This document shows, piece after piece, positions 21,581-62,649 of a DNA stretch of 64,000 bases (position 1 is the stretch's first letter; each line of letters starts with the position of its first letter). Made by a program: the position numbers and the translations under genes. The notes under the pieces were generated by a model, which saw nothing but the letters and a program-made list of their open reading frames with translations, did not search any database and was not told where the DNA came from. Source of the DNA: Cloacibacterium rupense (GTDB lineage: Bacteria; Bacteroidota; Bacteroidia; Flavobacteriales; Weeksellaceae). The stretch lies in the NCBI RefSeq assembly GCF_014645495.1, contig NZ_BMLV01000001.1:676596-740595 (forward strand). The letters are read 5' to 3'.

Positions 21581-21585
21581 TCAAA

Positions 21586-21648
21586 CTTCGTACTTCTAAT
21601 TTTGTACTTTTGAATTCGTACTTCTGAATTCGTACTTCTGACTTATAA
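21586..21648. repeat. 7-bp tandem array between lolD-like gene and radC
   Basis: Nine head-to-tail heptamers in 63 bp (plus view): CTTCGTA, CTTCTAA, TTTTGTA, CTTTTGA, ATTCGTA, CTTCTGA, ATTCGTA, CTTCTGA, CTTATAA. On the minus strand the unit reads AAGTACG/AAGTCAG. The array runs into the stop codon of the ABC-transporter gene. Same family as 22425-22459, 31521-31583 and 62321-62355. Confidence 0.85.
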
Positions 21649-28489: not shown

Positions 28490-28834
28490 TTACCAACGGC
28501 TTCCTCCGCCGCCTCTGTTATTTCCATAACCTCCGCCTCTGTTATTTCCATAACCACCTCCACGGTTGTTATCAAAACTTCTGCGTGGTTTTTCTTCTCT
28601 TGGTTTAGCTTCAGAAACGTTTAGTTCTTTTCCGTTAAATTCTTTACCGTTTAGAGCTTCAATTGCTTGACCTCCTTCTTCGTCAGTCATTTCTACGAAA
28701 CCAAATCCTCTTGATTTACCAGTTTCTCTGTCTGTGATGATTTTGCAAGACTGTACTTCTCCAAATTCTGAAAACAACTCGTTTAATTGATAATCTTTAG
28801 TTGTGTAATTGATGTTTGAAACAAAAATGTTCAT
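28490..28834 (-). CDS. RRM-type RNA-binding protein, glycine-rich tail
   Basis: A 114-residue protein: one RNA recognition motif (1-80) with RNP2 IFVSNI and RNP1 KSRGFGFVEM, then a basic linker and a tail built from repeats of GGGYGNNR, encoded by a tandem ~24-bp repeat (28503-28570). Bacterial proteins of this layout act like cold-shock or RNA-chaperone proteins. Single gene between a terminator and a 200-bp leader-bearing spacer. Confidence 0.92.
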   Translation of the reverse strand: MNIFVSNINYTTKDYQLNELFSEFGEVQSCKIITDRETGKSRGFGFVEMTDEEGGQAIEALNGKEFNGKELNVSEAKPREEKPRRSFDNNRGGGYGNNRGGGYGNNRGGGGSRW

Positions 28835-31157: not shown

Positions 31158-33683
31158 ATGAATACCAAAAAATATAACGTTCTGGGAATGTCTTGCGAAG
31201 GCTGTCAGAAAAAGATTTCTTCTGCTTTAAATAATGTTGAAGGAATAAAAGCAGATGTAAATCTCGCAGGAAACTTCGTTGAAATCACTTCTGAACAAGA
31301 AATCGACTTAGAAAAACTCAATTCAGAGCTTAAAAATGCAGGAAACTACGTTTTAGAAGATCCCGAAAAACCAAAATCTACAGAATTTATTCCACCTCAA
31401 GACAGAGTTTCTATAAGTTCAGTTTATTATTGTCCGATGGAATGCGAAGGCGAAAAAGTCTATTTCGTGCAAGGAAAACGTTGTCCAGTTTGCAACATGT
31501 ATTGCGTTCCGATTGAGGAAAAGACGGAAGATGGAAGATGGAAGATGGAAGCTAAAAGCCAGAAGCTAGAAGCAAAAAGCGGTTACTTTTGTCCTATGTT
31601 TTGTGAAGGCGATAAAACCTATCCCGAAAATGTAGGTTGCCCAGTTTGTGGAATGGATTTGGTGAAAATCACAGGAAATGACGATGAATCTGAAGATGAA
31701 ACTTACAGAAATCTGAAAAAAAAGATCTGGATTTCTGTAGCTTTTACTGTCCCAGTTTTTATTTTATCGATGGGAGGAATGTTTTTTGAGTTTCCTTTCA
31801 GCGCTAGAGTTTCTGGAATTTTACAATTAATTTTCACGATTCCTGTTGTATTTTTCACAGGATGGTTTTTGTTTAAAAGAGCTTGGATTTCTTTTAAATC
31901 TTGGAATCTTAATATGTTTTCATTGATTGGTTTGGGAGCAAGTGCTGCTTTTATTTACAGTATTTTCGCATTATTTTTTCCGAGTTTAATTCCTCACGAA
32001 TTCATGCACAATCATCATGAAGTTCCGCTTTATTTTGAAGCAGTTGCCGTGATTTTAACTTTGGTGATTTTCGGACAAATGTTGGAAGCAAAAGCCCATC
32101 AAAAAACAGGAAATGCCATCAAAGAATTGATGAACCTTTCGCCAAAAGAAGCACATCTTATTCAAAATAATGTAGAAAAAAACATTCCGATTTCGGAAGT
32201 AAAAATTGGAGATATTTTAAAAGTAAAACCTGGAGAAAAAATTCCTGTTGATGGAGAAATTATCGAAGGAAATACCACAATAGACGAAAGTATGATTACG
32301 GGTGAACCGATTCCTTCTGAAAAAAAATTAGGCGACAAAGTCACTTCTGGAACCATCAACGGAAACCAAGTTTTCTTGATGAAAACAGAGAAAATTGGCA
32401 AAGACACGCTTCTTTCACAAATTATAGAAATGGTAAATTCTGCAAGCCGAAGTAAAGCTCCTATCCAAAAACTCACAGATAAAGTTTCTAAATTTTTTGT
32501 TCCTGTTGTGATTGCAATTTCAGTATTAACTTTTATTTTTTGGTTCATTTTCGGGGGAGAAAATCGGGCAATTTTTGCTTTAGTAAATGCTTTGGCGGTT
32601 TTAATTGTAGCTTGTCCTTGTGCATTAGGTTTGGCAACGCCAATGTCTGTAATGGTAGGAATTGGGAAAGGTGCCAGAAACGGAATTTTAATTAAAAACG
32701 CAGAAGCACTGGAAAATTTAGAAAAAGTCAACGTCATCATCACTGACAAAACAGGAACTTTAACAGAGGGAAAACCTTCTTTAACACAAATTTTCACAGA
32801 AAATTTTAACGAAAATGAAGCGTTACAATTGGCTGCTTCTCTTAATAAAAATTCTGAACATCCACTTTCGCAAGCCGTTTTAAACCATGCAAAAAATTTA
32901 GAATTGAAAGATGCTAAAAACTTTGAAAACATTTCAGGAAGAGGAATTTTAGGGCAGATAGATGCTAAAAAAATATTCCTTGGAAATATTCATTATCTCA
33001 AAGAAAATCAATTTGAAATTTCTGAAAAACTGCTTCAAAAAGCTGAAATTTTAGAAAACGACGCGAATACTGTTTCTTATTTAACAATTGATGGAAAAGC
33101 AGTTGGTGTTTTTGGTTTTAAAGATCAAATTAAAGAAAATGCTAAATCTTCCATCCAATTTTTACAAAATAAAGGCATCGAAATCATCATGATGACAGGT
33201 GATAACGAAGCTACTGCAAAACATGTTGCCGAAAATTTGGGCATTAAAAAATATGTTGCTAATTGTCTTCCTCAAGATAAAATAAATGAGGTTAAAAACC
33301 TCCAAAATCAAGGGAAAATTGTAGCCATGACAGGTGATGGAATTAATGACGCTCCTGCTCTAACACAAGCCAACGTAGGAATTGCGATGGGAACAGGAAC
33401 GGATATTGCGATGAATTCTGCGGAAATTACTTTACTGAAAGGTGATATTTCGGGCGTTGCAAAATCTAAAATATTGAGTGAAAAAATGATGAAAAATGTA
33501 AAAGAAAACTTGTTTTTTGCTTTTGCTTACAACACCCTCGGAATTCCGATTGCTGCAGGTTTACTCTACCCTATTTTTGGCGTTTTATTGTCGCCAATGT
33601 TTGCCGCTGCTGCCATGAGTTTTTCATCGGTTTCGGTAATTGCCAATTCTTTGAGATTGAATAATGTGAAGTTGAAAATTTAA
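31158..33683 (+). CDS. copA: Copper-exporting P1B-type ATPase
   Basis: An 841-residue Cu+ export pump. An HMA domain (Cys13-xx-Cys16 in GMSCEGC) is followed by two Cys-rich heavy-metal-binding modules (YYCPMECEG..CPVCNM and YFCPMFCEG..CPVCGM), then eight membrane helices with the CPC site (ACPCALGLATP), phosphorylated Asp in DKTGTLTEG, the SEHPLS motif and GDGINDAPAL. The TTG at 31131 is not the start; the ATG at 31158 follows the promoter. The linker between the two metal modules (residues 122-142) is encoded entirely by a 7-bp tandem array. Confidence 0.95.
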   Translation: MNTKKYNVLGMSCEGCQKKISSALNNVEGIKADVNLAGNFVEITSEQEIDLEKLNSELKNAGNYVLEDPEKPKSTEFIPPQDRVSISSVYYCPMECEGEKVYFVQGKRCPVCNMYCVPIEEKTEDGRWKMEAKSQKLEAKSGYFCPMFCEGDKTYPENVGCPVCGMDLVKITGNDDESEDETYRNLKKKIWISVAFTVPVFILSMGGMFFEFPFSARVSGILQLIFTIPVVFFTGWFLFKRAWISFKSWNLNMFSLIGLGASAAFIYSIFALFFPSLIPHEFMHNHHEVPLYFEAVAVILTLVIFGQMLEAKAHQKTGNAIKELMNLSPKEAHLIQNNVEKNIPISEVKIGDILKVKPGEKIPVDGEIIEGNTTIDESMITGEPIPSEKKLGDKVTSGTINGNQVFLMKTEKIGKDTLLSQIIEMVNSASRSKAPIQKLTDKVSKFFVPVVIAISVLTFIFWFIFGGENRAIFALVNALAVLIVACPCALGLATPMSVMVGIGKGARNGILIKNAEALENLEKVNVIITDKTGTLTEGKPSLTQIFTENFNENEALQLAASLNKNSEHPLSQAVLNHAKNLELKDAKNFENISGRGILGQIDAKKIFLGNIHYLKENQFEISEKLLQKAEILENDANTVSYLTIDGKAVGVFGFKDQIKENAKSSIQFLQNKGIEIIMMTGDNEATAKHVAENLGIKKYVANCLPQDKINEVKNLQNQGKIVAMTGDGINDAPALTQANVGIAMGTGTDIAMNSAEITLLKGDISGVAKSKILSEKMMKNVKENLFFAFAYNTLGIPIAAGLLYPIFGVLLSPMFAAAAMSFSSVSVIANSLRLNNVKLKI
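31521..31583 (+). repeat. In-frame 7-bp array inside copA
   Basis: Nine heptamers: AAGACGG, AAGATGG three times, AAGCTAA, AAGCCAG, AAGCTAG, AAGCAAA, AAGCGGT. 63 bp equals 21 codons, so the frame is kept, although the unit shifts phase by one base each time. It encodes a hydrophilic linker (KTEDGRWKMEAK and on). Confidence 0.9.
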
Positions 33684-61239: not shown

Positions 61240-62649
61240 TTAAACCGTCATAGAAAACAGCCTCGTTTCAGGCATTTTTCTCATCATTCTCAGGTCAAAT
61301 GCCATGGCAACATTTCTGGTAAAAACTCTGCCTTTTTCTGTAATTTTTACAAAATCTTCTGACAATTCTACCAAACCATCTTCTTGCATTTCCTTTAATT
61401 TTTCTAATGCTTCTGGCAATTCTGCAAATGTATTTTTATCCGTAAACTCGGTTTCTAAATGGCACATCAGATTGAGAATATGTCTTCTGATGATTAAATC
61501 TTCTTCGTTTAAAATATGTCCTCGGAAAACCGGAATTTTGCCTTCTTCCACTCTTTTTTGGTAATCTTCTACTGTTTTTTCGTTTTGTGCAAAACCATAC
61601 CAAGAATCCGAAATCGCAGACATCCCCAAACCTACCATCAATTGCGTATTGCTAGAAGTGTAACCCATAAAATTACGATGCAGCTTTTTTTGAATTAAAG
61701 ATTGGTACAAATCGTCACTTTCTAGAGAAAAATGATCCATTCCCACTTCTATATACCCTAAATCTTCCAGCAATTTTTTTCCGTTTTCGTAAAGTTTGCG
61801 TTTTTCTTCGCCGCTTGGCAAATCATTTTCATCAAAACCTCTTTGCCCAACTCCTTTTATCCAAGGAACGTGAGCATAAGAATAAAATGCGAGTCTATCT
61901 GGCTTTAATTCGAGGGTTTTTCTGATGGTCAATTCCATAGCTTCCCAAGATTGATGAGGCAACCCAAAAACCAAATCGTGAGAAACACTTTTGTAGCCAA
62001 TTTCTCTTGCCCATTCTGTCACGTTTTTTACATTTTCGAAAGGTTGAATTCTATTGATGGCTTTCTGAACTTTTAAATCATAATCTTGCACCCCAAAACT
62101 GCATCTTCTGAATCCTAAATCATATAAAGTTTGCAAATGTTCTTTGGTGGTATTGTTTGGGTGACCTTCAAAAGAAAATTCTGGATTTTCGGCTATTTCT
62201 ACGGTACTAAAAATTCCTTCTAATAAAATTTTTAAGTTTTCTGGTGAGAAAAAAGTGGGAGTACCTCCACCGAGATGTAATTCTTTTAATTTGGGAGTAA
62301 TTGAGTGATTGAGTGATTGAATCTCTTCCGAATTCGGACTTCCGACTTCGGACTTAAACAAATCAAGGTACAACTTCCACTCCTTCAAAACACTTTCTAG
62401 ATAAGGCGTTTCTACCGAGTGTTGTTTGGTAATTCTTTTATGACAAGCGCAAAAAGTACAAAGATTTTCACAAAACGGAAGGTGAATATAGATAGAAATT
62501 CCTTCTTCTGCATTGCTTTCGTTAAATGCTTTGATGACCGTATTTTGCCATTTTCCTGAAGAAAAACTTTCGTTTTCCCAATACGGAACGGTAGGATACG
62601 AAGTATATCTAGGTCCTGGAATATTGTATTTATCGATGAGTGAGTTCAT
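61240..62649 (-). CDS. hemN: Oxygen-independent coproporphyrinogen III dehydrogenase
   Basis: A 469-residue radical SAM enzyme; converts coproporphyrinogen III to protoporphyrinogen IX without oxygen. Cluster motif CENLCTFCAC (CxxxCxxC), GGGTPTFF and the HemN C-terminal domain are present. An extra ~21-residue stretch (residues ~99-119, KSEVGSPNSEEIQSLNHSIT) between helix 2 and the GGGTP strand is encoded by 7- and 8-bp repeats and has no counterpart in the usual alignment I recall. Confidence 0.94.
   Translation of the reverse strand: MNSLIDKYNIPGPRYTSYPTVPYWENESFSSGKWQNTVIKAFNESNAEEGISIYIHLPFCENLCTFCACHKRITKQHSVETPYLESVLKEWKLYLDLFKSEVGSPNSEEIQSLNHSITPKLKELHLGGGTPTFFSPENLKILLEGIFSTVEIAENPEFSFEGHPNNTTKEHLQTLYDLGFRRCSFGVQDYDLKVQKAINRIQPFENVKNVTEWAREIGYKSVSHDLVFGLPHQSWEAMELTIRKTLELKPDRLAFYSYAHVPWIKGVGQRGFDENDLPSGEEKRKLYENGKKLLEDLGYIEVGMDHFSLESDDLYQSLIQKKLHRNFMGYTSSNTQLMVGLGMSAISDSWYGFAQNEKTVEDYQKRVEEGKIPVFRGHILNEEDLIIRRHILNLMCHLETEFTDKNTFAELPEALEKLKEMQEDGLVELSEDFVKITEKGRVFTRNVAMAFDLRMMRKMPETRLFSMTV
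62297..62355. repeat. 7-/8-bp array inside hemN
   Basis: Heptamers (minus view) AAGTCCG, AAGTCGG, AAGTCCG, AATTCGG, AAGAGAT at 62321-62355, then octamers TCAATCAC twice and TCAATTAC (62297-62320). Frame is open through all of it. Two repeat types meet in one gene. Confidence 0.85.

Follow-up and report, generated by a model that had tools for sequence, protein, structure and literature searches.

A heptamer array within the gene of a copper-type ATPase

The window, that is, the whole stretch of 64,000 nucleotides of Cloacibacterium rupense DNA analyzed here, encodes a CopA-like copper-type P1B ATPase, denoted CopA for short. The protein passes the copper-translocating P-type ATPase subfamily model TIGR01511 (592 bits, cut-off 397), does not pass the CopA equivalog model NF007952 (658 bits vs. 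cut-off 1316), and contains the Pfam domains HMA (residues 7-62), HMBD (143-170), E1-E2_ATPase and Hydrolase. The closest named relative of its N-terminal 200 residues among genome contigs is Cloacibacterium normanense (88%). The features of the locus are as follows:

31158..33683, + strand: CopA-like copper-type P1B ATPase, 841 aa (translation, Pfam, TIGR01511)
31431..31499, + strand: first cysteine-rich metal-binding-like module CPMEC...CPVCNM, residues 92-114, upstream of the linker (invariant cysteines)
31521..31583, + strand: array of nine heptamers, codons 122-142, KTEDGRWKMEAKSQKLEAKSG; four AAGAYGG units followed by five AAGCNNN units
31584..31667, + strand: HMBD (PF19335), residues 143-170, directly after the linker (Pfam 41.6 bits, cut-off 23.6)

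The register from the ATG at 31158 places the heptamers exactly on codons 122-142. The units are, in order, AAGACGG, three copies of AAGATGG, AAGCTAA, AAGCCAG, AAGCTAG, AAGCAAA and AAGCGGT. TRF reports period 7 at 31521-31551 and 31549-31580, the pattern of AAG every 7 bp, four times over, gives 6 overlapping matches in the window (mean 0.02 in 100 dinucleotide shuffles), all of them inside this array, and the shift-7 self-identity of the 66-nt CopA linker, 0.75, is equalled by none of 1000 shuffles. In its period (7), number of units (more than 3) and excess over chance, the array is thus a heptanucleotide tandem repeat. Coordinates, frame, TRF and shuffles all agree with the preliminary description of this DNA, in which nine AAG-headed heptamers made up exactly 21 codons between two metal-binding modules. 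The units named there, AAGACGG and AAGATGG, are present, but only four of the nine are of the AAGAYGG type, the other five being AAGCNNN.

The linker lies between the CPMEC...CPVC module, for which no Pfam match of its own is listed and whose cysteines are invariant in an alignment of 15 sequences, and the HMBD. In an AlphaFold2 model built from 15 sequences (mean pLDDT 63.3), pLDDT is below 50 at residues 121-140; judging by this model, the segment encoded by the array is probably a disordered or flexible linker. It may serve as a flexible spacer between the metal-binding modules, in which case the sequence itself would not be required. The array of the window forms no hairpin (folding z -0.40).

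The CopA linker in related bacteria

The genome of the window (G000; 3.17 Mb in 13 contigs) was compared with those of six Cloacibacterium congeners (G001-G006), one genome per species. A linker is present in all 80 CopA loci examined, of which 64 were parsed (22-38 residues, counted after PIE) and 16 were recognized by a looser pattern. Most of the parsed loci (57 of 64) belong to Chryseobacterium or Weeksellaceae MAGs, have linkers of 27-28 residues and show the 7-bp period in no case (p<0.05). The period is also missing in two Riemerella, one Bergeyella and one distant Cloacibacterium MAG (p=0.10). By contrast, differing heptamer arrays occupy the linker in four of the seven Cloacibacterium genomes: AAGATGG in G000, CAATCAG in G001, CAATCGG/CATTCGG in G005, and AAGTTCG followed by TCGAATC in G004. 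The remaining three (G002, G003 and G006) have a common non-repetitive, His-rich linker of 31 residues. Outside the genus, the linker of Soonwooa buanensis contains nearly four copies of CCAAGAA and three and a half of CAACCCT, and none of 1000 shuffles was as periodic.

Compared by eye, the arrays of the window and of G001 agree in unit number and register and can be aligned over their 3' halves; together with the linkers of the other congeners, this indicates that the unit type changed, with position and frame kept. The frame is open in all seven genomes. The preliminary description held that it survived only because nine units equal 63 bp, but there is nothing special about this number, given that a congener has an 87-nt heptameric linker in the same place; it is a survival filter. 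Absence of the segment in relatives had been proposed as the sign of an insertion, and none of the loci examined lacks a linker here. Simple insertion of the array into CopA is therefore ruled out, and, because the linker is found in all 80 loci, the repeat replaced or overwrote a pre-existing one. The conservation of the 21 residues in relatives, which would have argued for an ordinary linker, was not seen either.

Repeat modules in loops of other proteins

Loops of this kind were identified in the genes for CopA, HemN, a Dcp-like peptidase, CysRS, PolA, TrpF, 3-hydroxyacyl-CoA dehydrogenase and two glycosyltransferase-like proteins (GTa and GTb). The modules that occupy them are denoted A (AAGTCRG), B ((CAATCAG)n followed by (GAAAGC-type)n), C (CAAGAAY type) and D (GAGATAC+CTCGAAA). 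The second in-gene slot of the window is that of HemN:

61240..62649, - strand: HemN, oxygen-independent coproporphyrinogen III oxidase (TIGR00538, 425.9 bits, cut-off 324.95)
62325..62355, - strand: in-frame heptamers AAGTCCG AAGTCGG AAGTCCG AATTCGG AAG (minus-strand reading), FKSEVGSPNSEE
62295..62320, - strand: 8-bp repeat right after the heptamers, in the same loop (TRF period 8)

For the whole HemN loop, heptamers and octamers together, p is just 0.04 at period 7 and 0.0025 at period 8. In the comparison of orthologs identified by synteny, which took in G000-G003 and G006, the loop is short and empty (LFEEKPKLKEL) in G002, G003 and G006, and a CAATCAG composite module (B) occupies the same position in G001.

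The Dcp loop is even more variable. It contains A in G000 and G005, B in G002, D in G001, CAAGAAY+CAACTAA (C) in G004 and a short C-like stretch, the periodicity of which is not significant, in G006, and it is short and empty in G003. Orthologs with an empty site were thus found for HemN and Dcp, and none was found for CopA among the 80 loci. The proposal that intergenic repeat DNA had expanded into a gene is thus partly supported: a new insertion is ruled out for CopA, and insertion into an empty short loop is seen in HemN and Dcp.

In the CysRS loop, G000-G003 have B, G004 has the CAAGAAT type (C; p=0.005), G006 has the same type weakly (p=0.083), and G005 has a REP-like sequence, CACGCTGAGTGGAGTCGAAGC, which is a reversed relative of the one described below for GTa and GTb. 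Among the best 30 of the 117 family genomes with a CysRS match, modules were seen by eye in eight, namely, the seven Cloacibacterium genomes and G017, a member of another genus that has B. The structure model of CysRS is poor (mean pLDDT 45.7), with a low-confidence coil at 356-365 between two better helices. In PolA, the identity of which was established in G000 only, CAATCAG arrays occupy the linker between the 5' nuclease and 3'-5' exonuclease domains in G000-G003. The array in G000 (C7:48234) is directly followed by a GCGAGCGAAGCGAAGC-type sequence (GTCATTGCGAGCGAAGCGAAGCAA) instead of the second half of B; we take this sequence to resemble a common intergenic palindrome.

Four types of heptamer are found in the TrpF loop, with a palindrome-like insert nested in one of them, and 3-hydroxyacyl-CoA dehydrogenase of G001 contains a CAAGAAY array. 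The GTb loop is of the AAGTCGG type in G000 and G004, of the CAAGAAT type in G001 and G006, and REP-like in G003; a close ortholog was not found in G002 and G005. GTa, which gave no Pfam match at 1e-5 and which we presume to be glycosyltransferase-like from the resemblance of its motifs, has AAGTCGG in G000, a REP-like sequence in four congeners and another sequence in two; in these congeners, period 8 is significant in six of six and period 7 in none (p<0.01). The REP-like sequence that fills the loops of GTa in the four congeners and of GTb in G003 is GATGCTTCNACTNCGCTCAGCATGACA. A search of the open-access literature with four strings of 15-16 bases yielded no printed record of it.

Heptamer repeats across the genomes

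In G000, matches to the CopA stretch were found in 29 places, its own included. Searching G000 for AAG repeated five times at 7-bp spacing (AAGx5) gave 36 raw matches, which merged into 23 distinct arrays. Long genes contain four of these (the genes for CopA, an M3 peptidase and two glycosyltransferase-like proteins); the rest, where classified, are found in short frames, at the edges of genes or in intergenic DNA. The classification took in all arrays but C7:45578 and C7:49172; the script gave no segment for five of the 23, three of which lie, by eye, between genes. The statement in the preliminary description that the same units occur in non-coding spacers is borne out by many arrays in the genome, mostly intergenic where classified; within the window itself, a second array with four AAG repeats is absent. 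The window does contain an intergenic array of another type:

21585..21641, - strand: AAGTACG/AATTCAG-type array that begins at the upstream gene's stop codon

A 24-bp repeat of 2.5 copies is also found in the window (28509-28567), within a minus-strand open frame of 114 aa.

In 460 kb of G000, a sample partly chosen around matches and including the window, there are 40 period-7 segments, compared with 0-13 at each of the periods 4-6 and 8-13; among longer periods, 14, a multiple of 7, is represented by 32 segments, 15 by 2 and 16 by 10. A mostly even sample of 400 kb of G001 contains 8 period-7 segments and 0-5 at the periods 4-6 and 8-13, with 6, 0 and 3 segments at periods 14, 15 and 16, respectively. 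Third-order Markov controls gave no segments at any period. Among short tandem repeats, heptamers are thus the most frequent in this DNA, and the majority of the period-7 segments in the sample lie between genes.

The sampled stretches of G001 and G002 contain 63 AAGx4 arrays (39 and 24, respectively), seven of which were flagged inside long frames. Four of the seven were accepted as in-gene arrays (3-hydroxyacyl-CoA dehydrogenase, CysRS, GTb and TrpF). The other candidates, L260, L271 and L274, were dropped as coding arrays because the array sits close to the upstream limit of its frame, and the true start may lie farther downstream. AAGAGCC/AAGTAAA-type combinations of heptamers are frequent in both genomes, mostly outside long frames. 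AAGGATG arrays occur in four places in two regions of G002 (C1:1360809, 1360893, 1586396 and 1587085), each inside a 104-codon open frame, and are possibly parts of a repeated element.

For CAATCRGx2, 42 matches were found in the genus, 30 of them with loci, which merged into four gene sites (Dcp, PolA, CysRS and CopA) and five non-coding or gene-edge sites. This motif is found nowhere in the genome of G004, which carries C rather than B in Dcp and CysRS. The strict triple unit of B is present in just seven of 395 Bacteroidota genomes, G000 included. Dispersed copies of the modules are therefore both intergenic and in frame within genes.

Periodicity of variable loops

For 40 loops with a minimum length of 24 nt, from the genes for CopA, Dcp, CysRS, GTa, GTb and TrpF, periodicity was compared with that of 1000 dinucleotide shuffles per loop. 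At p<0.01, period 7 was significant in 26 loops, period 8 in seven, and periods 4-6 and 9-12 in none. These six genes were chosen because one member had an array; once these seeds are left out, period 7 is significant in 20 of 34 loops. In an unselected comparison of 29 proteins of the window (77 ortholog pairs), 62 variable segments included five with period 7: CopA (window and G001), HemN (G001) and, weakly, the same leucine-rich segment of two congeners. Each of the other periods accounts for 0-4 segments, and most of the variable segments are not heptameric. Most variable loops are therefore not slots, and CopA and HemN have the only clear ones among the 29 proteins.

Origin of the repeat modules

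CopA, Dcp, CysRS and HemN, as well as PolA of G001-G003, all show the order of the composite module B, in which (GAAAGC-type)n comes after (CAATCAG)n; the second half is missing in PolA of G000 and in several intergenic copies. The B modules of HemN (G001) and Dcp (G002) are nearly identical (60/63 locally, 60/65 globally) and share irregular units, although the genes are unrelated and the species different. In a tree of five loop-trimmed proteins, G000 and G004 are separated from G001, G002, G003, G005 and G006 with a support of 100; the latter five are ~95-96% identical, and the support of the inner branches is 36-90.

When five B modules were folded, three had z between -3.2 and -3.8, with -2.27 for CopA of G001 and -1.75 for PolA of G002. 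An inverted pair of AAG (A) arrays between genes had a folding z of -3.37. As a general property, a hairpin is ruled out for the modules tested of types C, D and E and for those of type A in genes, and it is partly retained for B. Some B modules form ladder-like hairpins with short pairs spaced 7 nt apart, the second half being like an inverted, degenerate first half. We found neither an enzyme that would do the copying nor a target-site duplication or mobile vector. Carriage of the B module by a plasmid or phage was likewise rejected, there being no match in either collection (the low-complexity filter of BLAST may hide some).

It is possible that the encoded peptides are ordinary low-complexity Lys/Glu linkers in which repetition of the DNA is incidental, and, indeed, they are rich in K, E, S and Q, the CopA segment has pLDDT below 50, and linkers vary among relatives. 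The repetition, however, is in the DNA at a period that is not a multiple of a codon, with periods 4-6 and 9-12 absent (p<0.01, 40 loops), whereas repetition at the codon or peptide level would favor multiples of 3, and the same units form intergenic arrays, all of which makes this explanation extremely improbable. Nearly as hard to sustain is a phase-variation (contingency) locus in which changes in the number of units switch CopA on and off by frameshift: one 7-bp unit more or less would indeed shift the frame, but the units are imperfect, with the longest identical run being three, and the frame is open in all seven genomes of the genus.

Local slippage alone, in which the polymerase slips in 7-bp steps at each locus independently and shared units reflect a unit preference, is a more serious contender. 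Heptamers are over-represented in many bacteria, and slippage related to the polymerase footprint has been put forward (PMC4692102, PMC4679880). By eye, units within arrays differ by single bases, and the unit types of intergenic arrays grade by single-base steps, so that some changes could be due to local slippage. As the sole process, it nevertheless appears rather unlikely, considering the recurrence of the composite B order in five genes, the irregular units common to the HemN and Dcp modules at 60/63 identity, and the REP-like and palindrome-like modules, which are not heptameric, in the same slots. Homologous recombination between species could alternatively have moved alleles of gene segments, each array having been gained once, long ago. 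The CysRS loops of G004 and G006 are alike, by eye, in both flanks and module despite their positions on opposite sides of the best-supported split, and B in CysRS is also found in another genus (G017, L341); transfer of alleles between species probably accounts for some of the patchiness, as in CysRS. As a full account it is unlikely, more so than slippage, because it leaves unexplained the five states of Dcp in five species that are ~95-96% identical (concatenated proteins) and the same module in unrelated genes.

We favor, with a probability of roughly 0.7, the interpretation that heptamer repeats, which are mostly intergenic, entered tolerant loops of proteins in frame, by copying, and subsequently gave way to other modules. 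The slots would be disordered linkers or variable loops, the CopA segment being one of several, and the modules that enter them would be heptamer arrays, some 8-bp arrays and REP-like palindromes. These modules would arrive from other arrays through template switching, conversion or an element-copying step of some kind, rather than through purely local slippage; slippage might then trim or extend the array, and selection would retain only the net in-frame, stop-free, hydrophilic outcomes. A further and more tentative idea, to which we give somewhat less than even odds, is that heptamer arrays are copyable elements that, by an undescribed route, continually rewrite tolerant loops of essential enzymes (CysRS, PolA and HemN). 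If so, the peptides encoded by the repeats would be interchangeable among closely related species, at positions that are fixed in the protein.

Relation to known repeats and implications

Heptanucleotide repeats of cyanobacteria are known as STRR. Sections of PMC4679880 and PMC4692102 describe TAACTGA heptamers in Beggiatoaceae, Cyanobacteria and some Bacteroidetes, and GGGAATC in Xanthomonas; heptamer repeats in some Bacteroidetes, including Elizabethkingia, are mentioned in parts of PMC4679880, PMC4692102 and PMC6749651. As in the systems described there (PMC4679880, PMC4692102), the units found here are 7-bp tandem repeats, mostly intergenic and different in neighboring species. The intragenic arrays reported in those sections are mainly in hypothetical proteins, with one near the end of the PurC gene (PMC4679880, PMC4692102), whereas the arrays described here are in conserved enzymes and vary among species at fixed loops. 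In the open-access literature searched, we found no paper reporting an exchange of heptamer modules at fixed loops in conserved enzymes, which does not prove absence.

Rickettsia palindromic elements (RPE) are described in PMC1950309 as repeats dispersed between genes and in frame inside protein-coding genes, and the proteins that carry them are counted in a section of PMC2635572. Here, too, copies are both intergenic and in frame within genes. Unlike the palindromic RPEs, the array of the window consists of tandem heptamers without a hairpin (z -0.40), and one slot can hold different repeat families in sister species. Of the traits of RPEs and REPs, a palindromic hairpin unit is found in only part of the modules and not in the array of the window, and empty sites in orthologs are found for HemN and Dcp but not for CopA. 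Intragenic REPs of the GTAG and CGTC families, according to excerpts of PMC3733652, encode ~20-30 residues as dimers or groups, many of them in genes of DNA synthesis and repair, and PolA (DNA polymerase I) is a slot here as well. Those REPs are hairpin elements discussed there in connection with tyrosine transposases (PMC3733652), whereas most of the modules described here are heptamer arrays. In-frame colonization of genes by RPEs and REPs is known; heptamer arrays that swap between sister species appear to be a new form of it.

The slots document, in nature and in replicate, how repeat DNA from between genes turns into protein, a record in which the same loop can be seen before and after and with several alternative inserts. 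They bear on the question of why 7-bp repeats dominate some bacteria and whether copying spreads them, and they mark insertion-tolerant sites in core enzymes.
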